Positions 3,266-12,211 of a DNA stretch of 26,386 bases are shown here, piece by piece. Positions within the stretch are counted from its first letter, which is position 1; each line of letters starts with the position of its first letter. The translations under genes were made by a program, and so were the position numbers. The notes below the pieces were generated by a model. It did not search any database and had not been told where the DNA came from. It saw only the letters and a list, made by a program, of their open reading frames with translations. Source of the stretch: a virus. The stretch lies in IMG/VR virus record IMGVR_UViG_3300042310_000828, positions 1 to 26,386 of that record. One strand, given 5' to 3'.

Positions 3266-3781
3266 TCACCGCAGCGGAGACGGGTCACTCAGGATCATGG
3301 ACTCTGCGCCGCCGTCGGCAATGGTGACGGCAGCCATCACTGAGCCGCCTTGACGTCGCCCGGCGACGTCCCAGGTTACCTCTGTGATGACGATGTAGCG
3401 CCCGCCCGGTAGCTTGTCGAAGCCGAAGTTCCCCTGCGCGTCGCATTGAGTTCGGCGGATGACTCGACCAAGCGCCGCCATGGTTTGTTCGTCATGTTCG
3501 ACGCGTCGGCGCTCCCGCATGTACCAAGTCCACTCAAGGAAATACTCCGCGTGCGGCAAAAGAAAAGCAGTGCTCCCGGCGCAGGTGACTACGCCACCAC
3601 CACGTTGGCGCAGAAACGCTTGCGCGCGCAAGCTCCCGGTGCCGTCGCGGGCAAACGCAGCATAGTCGGCAGCCACGAAGGGCGTCCGAAGCCTGTCAGG
3701 CTCGCGCGCGGTGGGAGGGGTCGCCACACAACCCGTCAAGGCAAAGGCGACCAAACAAAACGCGGTGAATCGATGCTTCAT
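3266..3781 (-). CDS. Prophage lipoprotein (lysogenic-conversion candidate, 171 aa)
   Basis: The N-terminus has a basic start, a hydrophobic core and the lipobox LTGC with the lipidated Cys at residue 18, so it is a signal-peptidase-II lipoprotein. The next residue is Val, not Asp, which fits outer-membrane sorting. The C-terminal half contains NFGFDKLPGGRYIVITEVTW, which looks like a carboxypeptidase-regulatory-like beta-sandwich. The ATG overlaps the repressor stop (ATGA), so it is expressed with the repressor in the lysogen. That makes it a moron-type gene acting on the host envelope, perhaps in exclusion or fitness; the exact job is unknown. Its G+C is visibly lower than the flanking phage genes, a sign of transfer. 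Confidence 0.85.
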   Translation of the reverse strand: MKHRFTAFCLVAFALTGCVATPPTAREPDRLRTPFVAADYAAFARDGTGSLRAQAFLRQRGGGVVTCAGSTAFLLPHAEYFLEWTWYMRERRRVEHDEQTMAALGRVIRRTQCDAQGNFGFDKLPGGRYIVITEVTWDVAGRRQGGSVMAAVTIADGGAESMILSDPSPLR

Positions 3782-4422
3782 GACTGTCCTACGCGGCCTT
3801 CCATGCCTACAAAAACGGCCATTAGGGTAAGGCCCTCGCGTTCTGAGTCAAGCGATTGATAGAGGTCGTTCAAGGGCTTAGCTTCCCAGGCCGACGCGGA
3901 TCGTGGGCGGTACAGGCGCAAGTAGAACCGACTCTGCGAGTCCTCTACGAGCACAATGTCGCCAGGACTGGGCGTCAAGGCGCGTTCAAGGTAAACCACA
4001 GAGCCGCTTCGTAGAAACGGGCTCATAGAGTCGTCAGGGCATTTGACGGCAAACCGGTTCGGAGCACTTAGCGGCATCAGGTTCTCCCAGGCAATAACGG
4101 GAACCTGATCAAACCGCACCTTGGAAGTCGACAGGTGCGCCGGATTTCCCCGTAGGCGCTGACTGTCAACGGGCCGTTGTGACACTGGCCAGCCAGGGGT
4201 TTCTTCGCGTACTGCCATGAACCCAGTCGCCAGCCATTCTGAGCTGACGTTGTACAACGTAGCCAACTGCACCGTGTAGCCGCTTGAGTGAGCCTGCTTC
4301 TCAAGCTCGGCCAGTGTGCCCTGCGAGATGCCTACCGCTTTGGCGGCTTGATCCTGCGTGAGTTGGGCGGCCTTGCGCGAATCAAGCAAGCGCTTGCCGA
4401 AGGGAGTGCGTTGGTAGCTCAC
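3778..4422 (-). CDS. cI: CI-like phage repressor, XRE HTH plus S24 domain (214 aa)
   Basis: Residues about 7-65 form an XRE-type helix-turn-helix (DQAAKAVGISQGTLAELEKQ as recognition region). Residues about 105-210 are an S24/LexA-like domain with the nucleophile motif DDSMSP (Ser132). The general-base Lys of this family lies 37 residues after Ser in LexA and UmuD; here position 169 is Arg (FYLRLY). No Ala-Gly or Cys-Gly scissile pair is obvious in the region before VPVIAWENL. It may therefore fold as S24 but not self-cleave. The start is a GTG at 4422, the first start after an in-frame stop, with no clear ribosome binding site. It is divergent from cro and cotranscribed with the lipoprotein; lower G+C than the late genes. 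Confidence 0.92.
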   Translation of the reverse strand: MSYQRTPFGKRLLDSRKAAQLTQDQAAKAVGISQGTLAELEKQAHSSGYTVQLATLYNVSSEWLATGFMAVREETPGWPVSQRPVDSQRLRGNPAHLSTSKVRFDQVPVIAWENLMPLSAPNRFAVKCPDDSMSPFLRSGSVVYLERALTPSPGDIVLVEDSQSRFYLRLYRPRSASAWEAKPLNDLYQSLDSEREGLTLMAVFVGMEGRVGQS

Positions 4423-4494: not shown

Positions 4495-4719
4495 ATGAAC
4501 TGGCCAGACTTGATCAAGCAGCTGCAGGCGCGCGGACTCACCCAGGTGGAAGTCGCGCGCCGCTGCGGTGTTTCTCAGTCCACTGTGAGCGATCTGGCGC
4601 AAGGTCGCACGAAGTCTCCCAGCTTCCGGTTGGGGGCGGCGCTGGTGGCGACTTTGGCGCAAGACACGGCCGCGCCGCAGCCCACCGCCACCCCTGAGCC
4701 CACCCATGCCGCAGGCTGA
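4495..4719 (+). CDS. Cro-like XRE-family regulator (74 aa)
   Basis: Residues about 5-50 are a compact XRE helix-turn-helix (LTQVEVARRCGVSQSTVSDL), followed by a short Ala/Pro/Thr tail. The small size, single domain and divergent position to the repressor fit a Cro role: binding the shared operators to shut off repressor synthesis in the lytic cycle. The ATG is at 4495; the predicted transcript starts on or within a base or two of it, so the mRNA may be leaderless. It is the first gene of the rightward early operon. Confidence 0.88.
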   Translation: MNWPDLIKQLQARGLTQVEVARRCGVSQSTVSDLAQGRTKSPSFRLGAALVATLAQDTAAPQPTATPEPTHAAG

Positions 4720-5253: not shown

Positions 5254-5596
5254 AGACCTCTTCGACCGCGGCCCGGGCCGGCCTCGAGGCACCTACGGCG
5301 AGGTGCGCGAAGCGCTCGTCACGGCTTGGCGCGAGGGCCCGGCGCCCGTGCGCGAGGCCGCGCAGCGCGCCTGCGTGGGGCACGCCGTGGCGCGCTACAC
5401 CGCCAGCCGCATGGCCGATGAGGGCCAGCTCTGCGTGGTGGTGGGGCGCAGGCCGGCCGTGATGGCGCTGGCCGATGACGAGCGCGTGTGCCCGCTGCCG
5501 CAAGGCGGCGGCGCAGAGCCGATGAGCGCTGAGCGCGTGCGCGATGAGCTGCACCGCCTGGGCGCCGCCTTTTGGGGCACGGAAGCCGACTTGTGA
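5243..5596 (+). CDS. Hypothetical early protein (117 aa)
   Basis: The chosen start is the ATG at 5243 (MDSLDLFDRGPGRPRGTYGE), with AGGGAG about 9 bases upstream. In-frame alternatives are ATG 5213 and GTG 5201. The product has an AT-hook-like GPGRPRG at residues 9-15 and then a helical part (VREAAQRACVGHAVARYTASRM) compatible with a winged-helix or HTH segment. Near the end come RVRDELHRLGAAFWGTEADL. It may bind DNA, but no family is recognised. The start lies inside a stem-loop made by the repeats at 5228-5253, so its translation could be controlled. Its stop shares one base with the next ATG (TGATG). Confidence 0.7.
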   Translation: MDSLDLFDRGPGRPRGTYGEVREALVTAWREGPAPVREAAQRACVGHAVARYTASRMADEGQLCVVVGRRPAVMALADDERVCPLPQGGGAEPMSAERVRDELHRLGAAFWGTEADL

Positions 5597-6555
5597 TGAC
5601 GCCGCAAGATGTCATCGGCCAGATGCTGGCTGCGGGCCTTGATCCGCCAAAGGCGGCGCTTGACCTGAGCGGCCGCATCGTGCGCTTTGGGCCCAAGAAG
5701 CGCCAGTGGTACGCGCTGCGCGAGATGCGCACGCAGGCCGGCACTTACGTGGTGGTTGGCTCCTTCGGTGACTGGCGAGGCCAGGAAACCCACAAGGTGG
5801 CCGTCGACTGGAAAGGCCTCACCGCCGCCGACCGTGACGAGCTCGACGCCCGACGCCGCGCGCGCCAGGCCGAGGAAGACGCCCGCCGCGCCCGGCTGGC
5901 GGCCCTGGCCGCCATGGGTGCGGCTGAGCTGTGGGCCGCGGGTGCGCGCCAGGGCGAGAGCGCTTACCTGCAGCGCAAGGCCGTCGAGCCCGAGGCCTGC
6001 CGCTACCTGCCCGACGGCAGCATCGTGGTGCCGCTGCTGCGCTACGACATGCCCCGCGAGCATGCGCTGCGCGCCGTGCAGCGCATCTGGCCCGATGGCG
6101 CCAAGCGCTTCACCAAGGGCTTCCAGAAGCCCGGCGTCGGGCTGCGCCTCGGCCACGTGGCCGTGGGCGAGCCAATCCTGGTTTGCGAGGGCTACGCCAC
6201 GGGCCTGACGCTGCGCATGGCCGTCGAGCGCCGGCTGCCGGTGTTCGTGGCGCTGGATGCGGGCAACCTGCAGCCGGCTTGCGAGCTGCTGCGCACGCTG
6301 TACCCGCACGCGCCGCTGCTCATCTGCGCAGACGACGACTGGCGCACCGCCGGCAACCCGGGGCGCGACAAGGCGCACAAGTGCTCGCGCACGGTCGACG
6401 CCTGCCTCTACACGTGGCCCACGTTCGCCGCTGGCCGTGGCGACAAGGACACCGACTTCAACGACCTGCACCAGCGACAGGGCCTTGGGGCCGTGCGCCG
6501 GCAGTTGCGGCACGTGTTGCCGTTGCTCGATTCGAATGTTCTGAATGCAGCCTGA
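5596..6555 (+). CDS. Toprim-domain replication protein (319 aa)
   Basis: The ATG at 5596 sits in TGATG with the upstream gene. Residues about 90-125 are a long Arg/Ala/Glu helix. The C-terminal half is a Toprim domain: ILVCEGYATG with the catalytic Glu at 198 and ICADDDW with Asp246-248. Toprim proteins of this layout act in phage and plasmid replication as primase components or helpers. The N-terminal zinc finger of full DnaG-type primases is not visible, so priming may need the partner encoded next, which overlaps by 11 bases. The two are probably a primase-helicase pair. Confidence 0.85.
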   Translation: MTPQDVIGQMLAAGLDPPKAALDLSGRIVRFGPKKRQWYALREMRTQAGTYVVVGSFGDWRGQETHKVAVDWKGLTAADRDELDARRRARQAEEDARRARLAALAAMGAAELWAAGARQGESAYLQRKAVEPEACRYLPDGSIVVPLLRYDMPREHALRAVQRIWPDGAKRFTKGFQKPGVGLRLGHVAVGEPILVCEGYATGLTLRMAVERRLPVFVALDAGNLQPACELLRTLYPHAPLLICADDDWRTAGNPGRDKAHKCSRTVDACLYTWPTFAAGRGDKDTDFNDLHQRQGLGAVRRQLRHVLPLLDSNVLNAA

Positions 6556-7990
6556 CAACGTCGTGCCTATGGAACCGCCTACCCCACCCGATGGCGGCGC
6601 ACCCGCGCCCAAGGGGGGAGGGGCGGCGCGCAAACGCAAGGCCCGCACGATCAACCTGGGCAACTACACCAAGCTGATGGAGCGCTTCGTGCTCATCTAC
6701 GGCACCAAGACCGTATGGGACGAAGAAAGCCACCGCATCGTGCCGGTGGATGCACTGCGCCTAGCGATGACGCCCGACTCGGTGAAGGCCTGGCTCAACA
6801 ACCCCACGCGGCGCATCGTGATGCCGGAGCAGCTGATGTTCGAGCCTGGGGAGGCGCTTCCCGAGGGCTGCATCCAGCTCTTCGGCGGGCTCGAAATCGA
6901 GCCGCTGGCCTGCGAGGCGCGCGAGGTGCAGCCGATGCTCGAGCTGCTGCGCCACCTGTGTGCCAACAGCGCCGACAACGCGGACGACGTCGACGCCATC
7001 GTCAACTGGGTGCTTTGCTGGCAGGCGCTGCCGCTGCAGAACCTGGGCGCCAAGATGCAGACGGCCATCGTGATGCACGGGCCCCAGGGCACGGGCAAAA
7101 ACCTTTACTGGGACGTGTGGCGCGACCTGTACGGGCGCTATGGCATCACCGTGGGGCAGACCGAGCTCGAAGACAAGTTCAACGGCTGGCTTAGCCAGAA
7201 GCTGGGCATCATCGGCGACGAGGTGGTGAGCCGCCAGGAGATGTACCACAACAAGAACCGGCTCAAGCTCATCGTCACGCAGCAGCAGAAGTTCCCGATC
7301 CGCGAGATACAGCAGGCCACGCGCTGGGAGAGCAACCACGCCAACGTGGTTTTCCTGTCCAACGAGAGCCAGCCGCTGGCCCTGGAAGAGCGCGATCGGC
7401 GCTACATGGTGGTGTACACGCCGCTGGCCGATGAAAAGGGCCTGTACCTCAAGGTGCGCGACTTCCTGGCCGCCGACGGCGCGCGCAAGTGGCTGCACTA
7501 CCTGCTGACCTATCCTCTAGACGGCTTCGACCGACACACCAAGCCGCTGATGACGAAGGCCAAGGAAGAGCTGATCCAGCGCGGCTGGCGGCCCTCTGAG
7601 CGCTTTGCGCATGAGTGGATGGCGGGGTATCTCCCCCTCCCTCTGAGGGGGTGCTCGGCCGAGCAGCTGTACCGCGCCTTCAGGCGCTGGGCAGACGTCA
7701 ACGGCGAGCGGTTTCCGCCACCTCAGGCGCAGTTCACCAGCGAGGTGGGGCGCTGGATCAAGGAACACAGCGGTAGCGACCCCGCAGGCCCGCGGCTGGC
7801 CTACAAGGTGGTGCAGCTGCATGGTGCCGATGGGCGCAAGGCCGTCCGCTGCTGGTTGCCGCGCGGCGTGGCGCCGCCTGAGGGCAGCAGCGAGGGGGCC
7901 TGGGCCGCTGAGAGCGTGCACAGCTTCGAGGACACCCTGCGCGACTACACCCGCAGCATCAGCGGGAACCGCTTCGAGGAGGCCGCCTGA
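6545..7990 (+). CDS. SF3-type phage replicative helicase, primase C-terminal-like (481 aa)
   Basis: Residues about 175-300 hold an AAA+/superfamily 3 ATPase core: Walker A GPQGTGKN (179-186), Walker B GIIGDE (Asp225, Glu226), a conserved Asn-containing strand (NVVFLSNES) and an Arg stretch (EERDRRYMVV) fitting sensor and Arg-finger roles. This matches the DUF5906-type NTPase found in phage and plasmid primases. The N-terminus is disordered and basic (KGGGAARKRKAR). The C-terminal 120 residues (GCSAEQLYRAFRRWADVNGE) look like a D5-type winged helix. It probably unwinds DNA at the phage origin, together with the Toprim protein. The sequence after it (7991-8201) has an origin-like repeat array. 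Confidence 0.9.
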   Translation: MQPDNVVPMEPPTPPDGGAPAPKGGGAARKRKARTINLGNYTKLMERFVLIYGTKTVWDEESHRIVPVDALRLAMTPDSVKAWLNNPTRRIVMPEQLMFEPGEALPEGCIQLFGGLEIEPLACEAREVQPMLELLRHLCANSADNADDVDAIVNWVLCWQALPLQNLGAKMQTAIVMHGPQGTGKNLYWDVWRDLYGRYGITVGQTELEDKFNGWLSQKLGIIGDEVVSRQEMYHNKNRLKLIVTQQQKFPIREIQQATRWESNHANVVFLSNESQPLALEERDRRYMVVYTPLADEKGLYLKVRDFLAADGARKWLHYLLTYPLDGFDRHTKPLMTKAKEELIQRGWRPSERFAHEWMAGYLPLPLRGCSAEQLYRAFRRWADVNGERFPPPQAQFTSEVGRWIKEHSGSDPAGPRLAYKVVQLHGADGRKAVRCWLPRGVAPPEGSSEGAWAAESVHSFEDTLRDYTRSISGNRFEEAA

Positions 7991-8201
7991 TGGCCGCGGT
8001 GTTACGCGCAAGGGCCGGTGTTACGACCCATGTTTCGCCGCAAACCCGCGTCGTTACGCGTGTTTCGCCGTTACGCCACCCGCACGCGTACACATGCGCA
8101 GGCGCGTGCGCGCATGTATGAGCACAACCCCGTAACAGCGAAACGCACGTAACCACGCGCCTTTCCAGCGTAACGCCCGTCGAAACACCCGTAACACCAC
8201 C
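7991..8201. other. Candidate replication origin: inverted hexamer array around a hairpin
   Basis: GTTACG occurs four times on the left (8001, 8020, 8053, 8070) and its complement CGTAAC four times on the right (8131, 8148, 8169, 8190). TGTTTCGCCG occurs twice on the left (8031, 8061) and CGAAAC twice on the right (about 8139 and 8181). In the middle ACATGCGC (8092-8099) pairs with GCGCATGT (8110-8117) around a 10-base loop. The stretch lies directly after the replication genes. A 43-codon frame (7990-8121) coupled to the helicase stop exists but is built from the repeats, so I do not call it a gene. Confidence 0.6.
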
Positions 8202-8399
8202 ATGAGCACTGAGCAGAAAAGGGAAGGGATGAGGGAAGTGATGCCGCAGACGGCGGCCTGGGTGGCCGAGCTGCGCCAGTTGCTGGGTGCGGAGCGTGTC
8301 GATGCGGCCATCAGGGCGGGCCAGCAGACGCGCCGCAAGCACCAGCAGCTATTGGAGCTGCAGGGCAAGGCCGCCGCCGATGCCTGGCTTCAGCGGTAG
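8202..8399 (+). CDS. Small phage protein ending at a suspicious amber codon (65 aa)
   Basis: The outer start is ATG 8202, which has no ribosome binding site. ATG 8229 and especially ATG 8241 (MPQTAAWVAELRQLLG) have AAGGGAAGGG and GAGGGAAG upstream and may be the true starts. The core TAAWVAELRQLLGAERVDAAIRAG resembles, from memory, a small betaproteobacterial phage family with 'AW(V/I)D.LR..FGA..(I/V)...IRAG' and a C-terminus like 'F(W/Y)A.ENGH.VGT'. In this gene the frame stops at TAG 8397-8399, but the same frame continues after it with GCFFASENGHTVGMRRA to a TGA at 8463. Function unknown. It sits just before the antiterminator candidate. Confidence 0.65.
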   Translation: MSTEQKREGMREVMPQTAAWVAELRQLLGAERVDAAIRAGQQTRRKHQQLLELQGKAAADAWLQR

Positions 8400-8466: not shown

Positions 8467-8835
8467 ATGGCGCGCATTGACGAGATCGACGGGCTGCTGT
8501 GGCTGTGGATGGAAGAGCTGAAGGTGGGCGACGGTAGCGGCTACCCGACCAAGAGCACGCTCCACGAGGATTGGTCGCCCCCGTCGCCGGGTGTGACGCC
8601 GACCATGAAGGTGAGCAGGGGCGGGAGCTGCGGCATCGGCGCTCTGGTTGTGAAGCTGCCGGCCAGTCTTAGGGCGACCTTGGCCGCGAAGTACTACCTG
8701 CGCATGACCGACCGCGAGGCGGCTGCGGCGTTGTCGTGCGCTGAGGCCACGGTCGGCCAGCGCATCGTGCGTGCGCACCAGCTGCTGGCTGGGATGATGG
8801 AGAAGCCTGCCTCGGTTTTTGCAACAACGGACTAG
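8467..8835 (+). CDS. Q-like late antiterminator / sigma-70 region-4-like HTH protein (122 aa)
   Basis: The ATG has GAGGAG about 9 bases upstream. The N-terminus MARIDEIDGLLWLWMEELKV and the phrase VGDGSGYPTKSTLHEDW are typical, from memory, of a small betaproteobacterial phage antitermination family. The C-terminal half (KYYLRMTDREAAAALSCAEATVGQRIV) is a helix-turn-helix like sigma-70 region 4. The gene is the last early gene and is followed at once by a promoter and an intrinsic terminator, the same order as lambda Q, pR' and tR'. It should let RNA polymerase read through 8884-8915 into the late genes. Antitermination is inference; plain DNA binding is the safer call. Confidence 0.72.
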   Translation: MARIDEIDGLLWLWMEELKVGDGSGYPTKSTLHEDWSPPSPGVTPTMKVSRGGSCGIGALVVKLPASLRATLAAKYYLRMTDREAAAALSCAEATVGQRIVRAHQLLAGMMEKPASVFATTD

Positions 8836-8915: not shown

Positions 8916-8922
8916 CTTGCCC

Positions 8923-9348
8923 GTGTCAAACCACCGCCACCTCTACAACAGCGCCGCCTGGAAGCGGGCGCGCTCGCGGCAGCTGGCGCTTGAGCCGCTG
9001 TGCCGCATGTGCCGCGAGCTGGGGCGCTACGTCGAAGCGGGCGTGGTTGACCACGTGATCCCGCACCGCGGCGACGAAGGCCTGTTCTTCGACGACGACA
9101 ACCTGCAGAGCCTGTGCAAGCCCTGCCACGATGGCCACAAGCAGGCGCAGGAGCACCAGCGCAACGGCTTGGTCCGCGGCGCCGGCCACACCGGACAGCC
9201 CCTAGACCGGGCGCACCCCTGGCACACCGCCGGGCGCCCCCGGGTAGGGGGGGGTCAAAAGTCTGAAGCCCTACAAGGGAAGACCGGTCCCTGCACATCT
9301 TTTGCAGAACCGCGAAATCGACAGGGGGGGGGTCATGCAGACTTCTGA
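8923..9348 (+). CDS. Phage HNH endonuclease (141 aa)
   Basis: The start is GTG 8923 (MSNHRHLYNSAAWKRAR); TTG 8917 is a less likely in-frame alternative. The zinc-binding pairs CRMC (Cys27, Cys30) and CKPC (Cys65, Cys68) frame the catalytic part: DHVIPH (Asp43, His44), Asn60 and the final His69. This is the small HNH type that sits next to the terminase genes of cos phages and helps the large subunit cut DNA during packaging. The tail after residue 85 is low complexity (DRAHPWHTAGRPRVGGG) and contains an 8-G run. It overlaps the next gene by 14 bases. Confidence 0.9.
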   Translation: MSNHRHLYNSAAWKRARSRQLALEPLCRMCRELGRYVEAGVVDHVIPHRGDEGLFFDDDNLQSLCKPCHDGHKQAQEHQRNGLVRGAGHTGQPLDRAHPWHTAGRPRVGGGQKSEALQGKTGPCTSFAEPRNRQGGGHADF

Positions 9349-10021
9349 CCTCCTGCTCGATGTCGACGGCTGCTTCGCCGACTTCGACGAGATCGAGATC
9401 GATCCCGAGGCCCGTGCGCGCCGCCTTGCAAAGCGCGTACTGGCTCGCGCCACGCGCACGCGCAGCCGCATACAAACGCGCCGCGCCAGTTCAGAGGCCA
9501 CGCTTGGCAGCCTGCTGCCGTCGCGCATTGATGCAGGCGACTCCTGGCACGTTATCAGCGGCGGCGACGTTGACAGCCTGAGCTACGCCGCCCACCTGCT
9601 GGCCGGCGAGCCGTTTCAACGCATGGTGCTGAGCACCTGGTGCATGGCGATTGATGACGTGGCCACACTGCGCGCCTGGCTGGATGCCGGCAAGCTGAAG
9701 CGCCTTGACTGCTACGTCGGCGAGATCTTCCCGAGCCAGTACCAAGAGGCATACGCGGCGCTCTGCGCTGCCGTGCGCGCGCATCACGGCCGCGTGGCTA
9801 CGTTCCGCAACCACAGCAAGGTGATGCTGCTGGGCAACGACAGCACGCAGCGGTACATCGTGATCGAGTCCAGCGCGAACGTGAACACGAACCCGCGGAC
9901 CGAGCAAACGTCAGTGACGGCTGACGCCGAGCTCTTCCGCTTCTACGACGACTTCTTCGCCGACATCAAGTCGTACAGCCGCAACTTCGACGACTGGCAG
10001 CGCCATGGCACGACCGCGTAA
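9335..10021 (+). CDS. Phospholipase-D-superfamily-like protein with one HKD motif (228 aa)
   Basis: The start is ATG 9335 (MQTSDLLLDVDG), with a G-rich ribosome binding region just upstream; an in-frame TTG at 9302 is less likely. After a basic helix (residues about 25-50) a globular domain ends with NHSKVMLLGND (His160, Lys162) followed by IESSANVN (Ser179, Ser180, Asn182). This fits the H-x-K-x(n)-D...(G/S)S-x-N pattern of the PLD superfamily, single-copy as in PLD nucleases. It lies between the HNH and terminase genes, so a DNA-cutting or packaging role is more likely than a lipid one; this is inference. It overlaps the small terminase gene by 17 bases. Confidence 0.68.
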   Translation: MQTSDLLLDVDGCFADFDEIEIDPEARARRLAKRVLARATRTRSRIQTRRASSEATLGSLLPSRIDAGDSWHVISGGDVDSLSYAAHLLAGEPFQRMVLSTWCMAIDDVATLRAWLDAGKLKRLDCYVGEIFPSQYQEAYAALCAAVRAHHGRVATFRNHSKVMLLGNDSTQRYIVIESSANVNTNPRTEQTSVTADAELFRFYDDFFADIKSYSRNFDDWQRHGTTA

Positions 10022-10469
10022 GCCGACCGCGCTAAAGCTGATCGAAGGCAACGCCGGCAAGCGTGCCATCAACGCCAAAGAGCCCGAGCCTGTTTTCCTG
10101 CAAGACCTGACGCCGCCGCCACACTTGCCCGCTGCTGTGGCCGAGGTGTGGCGCGAGCTCGCGCCAAAGCTGGCCCGCGCCCACGTGCTCACCGAACTCG
10201 ACACACCGCTGCTCGAGATGACAGCCGCCGCGATGGCGAACTTTCGCCTGACGATGGCCCGCACGGACGGCGGCAAAGTCATGCAGCGCAACGAGGAAAC
10301 GGGCTCTGTCAGCCTCAACCCCTACACGATGCTGCAGAGCATGGCCTTCAAGCAGGCCATGAGCGCACTGCGCGAGTGGGGCGCCACGCCTGCTGCGCGC
10401 AGCCGCGTCGTGGTCGATCCGCAGGCCGACCTGTTCAGCAACAGCAGCACCGAGCGCTTCTTCAAGTGA
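10005..10469 (+). CDS. terS: Terminase small subunit, P27 family (154 aa)
   Basis: The N-terminus MARPRKPTALKLIEGNAGKR is the hallmark of P27-type small terminases (ARP.KP...KLL.GN...R). The body is helical and the C-terminus short and polar (ADLFSNSSTERFFK). The small subunit recognises the packaging start and hands DNA to the large subunit. Length is normal for the family. Its stop overlaps the GTG of the large subunit (GTGA), the usual coupled arrangement, which keeps the two subunits in proportion. Confidence 0.94.
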   Translation: MARPRKPTALKLIEGNAGKRAINAKEPEPVFLQDLTPPPHLPAAVAEVWRELAPKLARAHVLTELDTPLLEMTAAAMANFRLTMARTDGGKVMQRNEETGSVSLNPYTMLQSMAFKQAMSALREWGATPAARSRVVVDPQADLFSNSSTERFFK

Positions 10470-12211
10470 CCGTCGCCGAAGCCCCCGTCGCCAAGCCCGC
10501 CCGCAAGCGCGCCCCGCGCCGCGCCGCGCCGGCCGACCGCACCACCGCCTACGCGCGTGACGTGCTCAGCGGCCGCCTCATCGCCGGGCCGCACGTGCGC
10601 GCCGCCTGCAAGCGCCACCTCGATGACCTCGAGCACGGCGCCGCCCGCGGCCTGCACTTCGACCTTGCCCAGGCCAACGAGGCCATGGCGTTCTTCGAAG
10701 AAGTGCTGCGCCTCAACGGCGGCGCCTTCGAGGGCACGCCCTTCAAGCTGCAAGGCTGGCAGGCCTTCATCGTGGGCAGCATCTACGGCTGGATGCGCGG
10801 CGACGTGCGCCGCTTCCGCGTGGCCTACGTCGAGACGGCCAAGGGCAGCGGCAAAAGCCCGCTGGCCGCCGGTGTCGGCATGAAGGGCCTCACCGCAGAC
10901 GGCGAGCCGCGCGCCGAGGTCTACGCCGCAGCCACCAAAAAAGACCAGGCCATGGTCATGTTCCGCGATGCCGTGGCCATGTTCCAGCAGAGCCCCGAGC
11001 TGCAAGCCCGCCTGCAACCGAGCGGCGTGGGCGAGAACGTCTGGAACCTCGCGTACCGCGCCACCAGCAGCTTCTTCCGCCCCATTAGCGCCGACGACGG
11101 GCAAAGCGGCCCGCGGCCGCACGTGGCCCTGATCGACGAGGTGCACGAACACAAGACCATGACCGTGGTCGAGATGATGCGCGCCGGCACCAAAAGCCGC
11201 CGGCAGGCGCTCATCTTCATGATCACCAACAGCGGCGCCGGCAAGACCACGCCCTGCGGCGTGTACCACGACTACGCCTGCGAGGTAGCCGCGCGCAAAC
11301 GCCAAGACGACGCCTTCTTCGCCTACGTCTGCGGCCTGGACGAGGGCGAAGATCCGCTGCAGGACGAGGCCTGCTGGCCGAAAGCCAACCCCTCCCTGCA
11401 AGAGGCCGGCATCCCGGGCCTGCAGTACCTGCGCGAACAAGTCACCGAGGCGCGCGGCATGCCCTCGAAAGAGTCCATCGTTCGCCGCCTCAACTTCTGC
11501 GAGTGGACCGACGCCATCAACCCCTGGCTCAGCAGCCTCGTGTGGGAACCCTGCCAAGCCGACTTCAGCGCCGATCAACTCCGCGGCCGCCGCGCCTACG
11601 GCGGGCTTGACCTTTCCAGCACCACCGACCTGACCGCATTCGTCCTGCTGGTCGAGCCCGCCGGCCCCGGCGAGCCCTGGAGCATCCTCCCCTACTGCTG
11701 GCTGCCCGAGCAGGGCCTGCGCGAGCGTTGCGAGCGTGATCGCGTCGACTATGACACCTGGCGCAGGCAGGGCTACCTGCACACCACGCCCGGCGCCGCC
11801 ATCAGCAAGCGACACGTTCTGCAAGAGGTGGCGCAGATTTGCGCCCAGTTCGAAGTGCAGGCCATCGCCGCCGACCGCTGGCGCCTGGCCGACTTCCGCC
11901 AGATCGCTGAGGATGAAGGCATCGCCCTCCCGCCGCTGCTTGAGTTCGGCCAGGGCTTCAAGGACATGAGCCCCGCCGTCGACCGCTTCGAGACCGCCAT
12001 CCTCAACCGCACGCTGCAGCACAACGGCCACCCAGTGCTGACCATGTGCGCCGCCAACGCCGTGACCGACACCGATCCCGCCGGCAACCGCAAGCTCAAC
12101 AAGGCGCGAGCCATGGGCCGAATCGATCTGGTGGTGGCTGCAGTCATGGCCTACGCCAGCGCTGCCGCCGAGCCGGACGACAACACCATGCCCGAGATCT
12201 ACGTCCTATGA
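10466..12211 (+). CDS. terL: Terminase large subunit (581 aa)
   Basis: The start is GTG 10466 in GTGA with the small-subunit stop; the frame is open further upstream but that is the small subunit's shadow. A basic linker (KPARKRAPRRAA) precedes the ATPase: Walker A-like AKGSGKS (about 125-131) and Walker B VALIDE (Asp224, Glu225). A threonine-rich coupling segment (MITNSGAGKTTPCG) follows. The nuclease domain starts with GGLDLSSTTD (Asp382), the first acidic residue of the RNase-H-like centre. It pumps DNA into proheads and cuts it. The family is the terminase type usual in HK97-like cos phages. Complete. Confidence 0.95.
   Translation: MTVAEAPVAKPARKRAPRRAAPADRTTAYARDVLSGRLIAGPHVRAACKRHLDDLEHGAARGLHFDLAQANEAMAFFEEVLRLNGGAFEGTPFKLQGWQAFIVGSIYGWMRGDVRRFRVAYVETAKGSGKSPLAAGVGMKGLTADGEPRAEVYAAATKKDQAMVMFRDAVAMFQQSPELQARLQPSGVGENVWNLAYRATSSFFRPISADDGQSGPRPHVALIDEVHEHKTMTVVEMMRAGTKSRRQALIFMITNSGAGKTTPCGVYHDYACEVAARKRQDDAFFAYVCGLDEGEDPLQDEACWPKANPSLQEAGIPGLQYLREQVTEARGMPSKESIVRRLNFCEWTDAINPWLSSLVWEPCQADFSADQLRGRRAYGGLDLSSTTDLTAFVLLVEPAGPGEPWSILPYCWLPEQGLRERCERDRVDYDTWRRQGYLHTTPGAAISKRHVLQEVAQICAQFEVQAIAADRWRLADFRQIAEDEGIALPPLLEFGQGFKDMSPAVDRFETAILNRTLQHNGHPVLTMCAANAVTDTDPAGNRKLNKARAMGRIDLVVAAVMAYASAAAEPDDNTMPEIYVL

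Follow-up and report, generated by a model that had tools for sequence, protein, structure and literature searches.

An inverted array of short repeats directly downstream of an SF3 helicase gene, a putative replication origin of temperate phages

The array and its gene neighbourhood

The window, meaning the whole stretch of 26,386 nt analysed here, is a fragment of a viral genome. A Toprim primase and an SF3-type helicase are encoded in it by two overlapping genes (5572-7990), which correspond to a single protein in phage S1. The helicase stop (7990) and the next ORF (8202) are separated by a gap that is entirely occupied by an element of about 200 bases, whose two arms are sets of short repeats facing each other around an unusual zig-zag sequence. 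The features of the region are the following.

5572-6555, + strand: Toprim primase, split partner of the helicase
6545-7990, + strand: SF3-type helicase (DUF5906), proposed initiator, with a C-terminal winged-helix-like domain at about residues 346-440
7991-8201, + strand: whole element, inverted iteron array in the non-coding gap after the helicase stop, putative replication origin
8001-8075, + strand: left iteron set, GTTACG at 8001, 8020, 8053 and 8070, GTTTCG at 8031 and 8062
8037-8052, + strand: box GCCGCAAACCCGCGTC between outer and inner left iterons, with a counterpart (CACGCG...) at 8154-8168; the box reads CTAAGTnnTTGAT in other relatives
8081-8120, no strand assigned: centre, with alternating purine-pyrimidine runs of 20 nt from 8081 and 19 nt from 8102; holds the hairpin
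8131-8195, - strand: right iteron set in opposite orientation, CGTAAC at 8131, 8148, 8169 and 8190, CGAAAC at 8139 and 8181
8202-8399, + strand: 65-aa ORF after the array, thought to lie outside the origin

A preliminary description of this DNA had reported four GTTACG words on the left and four CGTAAC words on the right, pointing to a central hairpin and accompanied by companion words of the same polarity. All eight hexamers were found at exact positions. The companions are GTTTCG and CGAAAC, one-letter variants of the GTTACG word, two per side and identical in polarity. The hairpin is also as described, spanning 8092-8117, where ACATGCGC (8092-8099) pairs with GCGCATGT (8110-8117) in a stem of 8 bp closed by a loop of 10 nt. 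CRISPR arrays and direct iteron sets are made by repeats in one orientation; the window repeats occur in both, and the array is neither, as had been proposed.

The array is not due to chance. GTTACG occurs 11 times in the window, against 3.75 expected and a maximum of 10 in shuffled sequences (n=100), and just three copies in 26 kb lie outside the array. A score taking polarity into account is 8 for one hexamer, the maximum being 7 in 2000 dinucleotide shuffles of the region and 5 in 1420 control stretches from related loci.

The region is no conserved coding sequence, because its open frames vary from one relative to the next in both strand and frame, and about half of the relatives (33/67) have none. 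The 65-aa ORF is kept in the closest relatives only (48–72% identity in close relatives), and gave no Pfam or PHROG match. No match was obtained when the whole region was searched as DNA against the phage collection, and a promoter scan found none.

Arrays beside the helicase gene in related phages

Searches with the helicase yielded 80 viral loci and two genome loci, with helicase relatives 39–91% identical. In nearly all, an inverted array lies directly 3' of the helicase stop. The same layout at the same place was found in more than 60 related phages, which differ in the spelling of the repeats. A score computed de novo is at least 5 in 63 of 69 distinct segments, and inspection by eye revealed degenerate or mixed words in some of the lower-scoring ones (e.g. 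L077, L079, L097). In the one helicase locus that seemed an exception, having nothing at this position, L092, the array is found about 500 nt further downstream, behind one short gene; this gene overlaps the helicase stop, and now separates helicase and array (L092, 4350-4830). Inverted words were recognized by eye in Stenotrophomonas S1 (GTGCGGG), Pseudomonas LPPA56 (GTTGGGT) and Halomonas H4907 (TCAGACAG); the de novo score supports the first two (10 and 9, respectively), and does not support the third (3). The array is doubtful in Moraxella Mcat7. No clear array follows the primase gene in Bordetella phage BPP-1, which is a point against the origin model.

The reverse search, in which public viral contigs were scanned with three sequence patterns of the array, retrieved 22 stretches, all featuring a helicase match which ends within about 230 nt (22/22); the check is independent in part, since several contigs are the same as those found by the helicase search. 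A second, weak match to the window helicase (28–32% over about 200 aa) was noticed in L118, L120, L122 and L123. It is located on the opposite strand, about 4–6 kb before the array and upstream of the true helicase, and may represent another helicase-like gene.

Genes located 3' of the array vary among relatives, and include the 65-aa ORF, an antiterminator-like gene, HNH, the terminase small subunit, a minor tail protein, PAPS reductase and methyltransferase. The array stays beside the helicase as the downstream genes change; its partner is hence the helicase, and neither the antiterminator nor the terminase. The preliminary description had placed a logical origin between helicase and antiterminator. 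The origin reading is supported, at the level of sequence, by the linkage to the helicase; the antiterminator has no bearing on it, as relatives usually lack this neighbour.

The same comparison bears on the view that the array is a packaging site, with cosB- or pac-like repeats serving a terminase encoded 1–4 kb downstream. HNH and terminase genes do occupy 8917-12211 in the window, and terminase genes are near in some relatives, but tail, lysis, methyltransferase or other genes are found downstream in many others, and the helicase adjoins the array in every array-first stretch. A role in packaging is highly unlikely.

Words, spacers and centre

Most phages use a single word, which occupies 6–11 sites across the two arms, and the choice of word is not the same in all phages. 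GTTACG, GTTGCG, GTTTCG, GTCCCG, CTCCCG, GTCACG and TTTACG are all represented; two related words are mixed in a few (L017, L020, L097, and the window itself). On average, the arms of one locus have 32 6-mers in common, versus 13 with the arms of other loci. Since GTTACG is common to many phages, the strict best match of a left arm is its own right arm in just 19 of 57 loci. When close relatives are compared, the columns of the hexamers are 88% identical and the other columns 58%, in line with the conservation of hexamers against flanks on which the preliminary description had proposed a check.

Two layouts were distinguished. In group A, a mirrored box (CTAAGTnnTTGAT or CGCAAACCCGCGTC) is placed between outer and inner words. 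In group B, iterons of 8 bp form one set of two and one of three on the pattern of doublets and triplets, with a box that has the same orientation on both sides. The arms of the window are 83% complementary in the words and 44% in the spacers. Complementarity of the spacers is poor in the window and close relatives (44–45% in the window, L002 and L022), and reaches 70–84% in some group A relatives. Conserved words, variable spacers and the non-mirrored box of group B favour sites bound by a protein over one long hairpin.

These data weigh on two alternatives based on folding. The transcript of the gap could be an RNA element, with a long hairpin that terminates or regulates transcription where early genes give way to late ones, for example as a site for the downstream antiterminator. 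A folding energy of -93.8 kcal/mol was computed for the + strand (z -3.8 versus shuffles), the gap is located at the border of early and late modules with an antiterminator-like gene (8467-8835) nearby, and cumulative GC skew in the window peaks, and turns, at 8805, near the array and likewise at that border. Complementarity is however confined to the words rather than extended to the whole stem, the arms of group B, with their same-oriented box, are no simple hairpin, and other genes are found downstream in most relatives. The gap moreover has no Rfam match and hosts no terminator-like site, the only ones being at 8394 and 8893, both outside the array. We regard the RNA element as improbable. 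The skew turn was not used as evidence for an origin either, because its sign is opposite to that of a bidirectional origin with G-rich leading strands, and the early/late border coincides with it.

The second alternative is an origin recognized by shape rather than by words, as a single long cruciform or stem-loop. In plasmid pRN1, a stem-loop of 100 nt located just after the primase-helicase gene is required, and phage BIP-1 has been proposed to have a similar one (PMC4234260). The window element resembles these origins in that it immediately follows a primase-SF3 helicase gene and is poorly conserved in sequence between relatives (PMC4234260), and the complementary spacers of some group A relatives would be compatible with such a structure. 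In pRN1, however, iterons are missing and the single stem-loop is the signal. The window has iterons, and its arms are not complementary throughout, as the spacers show. Moreover, words are conserved and spacers are not, and group B boxes are not inverted. An origin recognized by its structure is very unlikely.

The words change in concert between phages. This stands against a partition centromere or a repressor-operator array merely adjoining the helicase gene. Short repeated sites are typical of such arrays. No partition gene was found among the window proteins scanned (a subset of the ORFs), and the array is located 3' of the helicase, not of the repressor genes (3778-4422 and 4495-4719). 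This explanation is extremely improbable.

The centre of the array differs from what had been described. The hairpin is present in the window, but the conserved feature is a tract of alternating purines and pyrimidines. The two runs at 8081 and 8102 are the longest of this type in the window. In 67 arrays the longest alternating run has a median length of 22 nt, versus 8 nt in control stretches, and 66 of the 67 are at or above the 99th percentile of the controls; the longest run among the controls belonged to the displaced array of L092.

The helicase and the putative origin

Primase and helicase match two parts of one 802-aa family of phage primase-helicases, phrog_2249. The helicase as modelled by AlphaFold (mean pLDDT 86) matches the helicase region of NrS-1 (Z 27.0, 365 residues), the SaPI5 primase-helicase (Z 17.3, 356 residues) and PriRep1 (Z 13.7). 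To judge from the model, the helicase is related to the SaPI Rep helicases at the fold level only. The C-terminal domain, modelled alone (pLDDT 92), has the order of elements of a winged helix. The P4 origin-binding domain (1KA8) ranked first in comparisons with it, at a modest Z of 6.3 (rmsd 3.7, 83 residues); Foldseek alone found no significant match for the isolated domain. The predicted structure fits an origin-binding domain of the P4 type, the match being modest.

Word differences were compared with helicase differences by partial Mantel tests, in which words had been assigned by hand: in group A the partial correlation is 0.41 for the C-terminal domain and 0.44 for residues 38-118, and in group B no correlation with helicase domains was found. 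The recognition-helix sequence of L037, whose word is CTCCCG, is almost identical to that of the window, whose word is GTTACG; this speaks against the origin model.

Known systems in which a helicase acts on nearby repeats offer a frame for these data. In P4, the crr region lies directly 3' of the alpha gene, and its 8-bp type 1 repeats (TGTTCACC) occur in both orientations; short iterons in both orientations are likewise found in the window, directly 3' of the primase-helicase genes. The C-terminal winged helix of alpha binds the crr repeats, and is the domain ranked first for the window helicase. The two systems differ in several respects. P4 has two 120-bp copies of crr and a separate ori, whereas the 26-kb window, a genome fragment, has one array and no second cis site comparable to ori and a duplicated crr. 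The crr is AT-rich (39% GC), and its longest alternating run measures 7 nt, in contrast to the alternating, GC-rich centre of the window. Unlike P4 alpha, primase and helicase are separate genes.

In PICIs the origin adjoins the 3' end of the initiator gene and has an AT-rich region between two iteron sets, and a PICI rep-ori drives plasmid maintenance (PMC6092414). Their organization has been held to be common to no other known replicon (PMC6092414). The window array, as a putative origin, shares with the PICI/SaPI rep-ori the position immediately 3' of the initiator gene, the two iteron sets and a helicase with a SaPI5-like fold; the flanked region is AT-rich in PICIs, and 65% GC with alternating purines and pyrimidines in the window. 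SaPI and SCCmec helicases bind downstream repeats through the C-terminal domain, as exemplified by Cch2, a SaPI5 Rep homologue, whose C-terminal domain binds repeats downstream of its own gene (PMC7581432). Differently from the window, binding at the SCCmec Cch2 origin needs only three direct 5-nt iterons, and no inverted iteron array is present.

The two iteron sets of a PICI origin are thus found in the window, the AT-rich centre of the known relatives is not, a further point against the origin model. The element was not classed as a PICI or P4 origin because an AT-rich centre and a double cis site are lacking. The alternating tract takes the place of the AT-rich melting region, and the array, as a putative origin, is a widespread new form of a known kind, differing in its centre.

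Its anatomy and conservation, the linkage to the helicase, the concerted change of words one by one, and the predicted fold of the helicase argue that the region 7991-8201 is most probably the replication origin of the phage, working like P4 crr and the PICI/SaPI origins. A common layout kept at a common place despite differing words makes this a likely start site for the copying of DNA. On each arm, a group of copies of the helicase encoded upstream would use the winged-helix-like domain at the C-terminus to bind the GTTACG-type words. Because the arms are of opposite polarity, two helicase rings would be loaded face to face, one on either side of the centre. Opening of the centre would follow, as the alternating tract may be easily unwound and prone to form Z-DNA or a hairpin, properties predicted from the sequence. 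The Toprim primase encoded beside the helicase would prime, and host enzymes would extend in both directions.

A more specific scheme may be entertained, though we consider it rather doubtful. The strand-opening element would be the alternating tract itself, flipping to the Z-form or extruding under supercoiling; rings placed head-to-head would so open a GC-rich origin, and the wholesale swapping of iteron words would generate many mutually exclusive origin specificities.

For temperate phages of a broad group, both uncultivated and cultivated, the array and the helicase are a concrete candidate for origin and initiator. Although described as restricted to satellites, the PICI/P4 plan may be widespread in phages proper. 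Words that have changed in nature from phage to phage supply a ready data set on how SF3 initiators read DNA, and the conserved alternating centre raises the question of how a GC-rich origin opens without an AT-rich tract.
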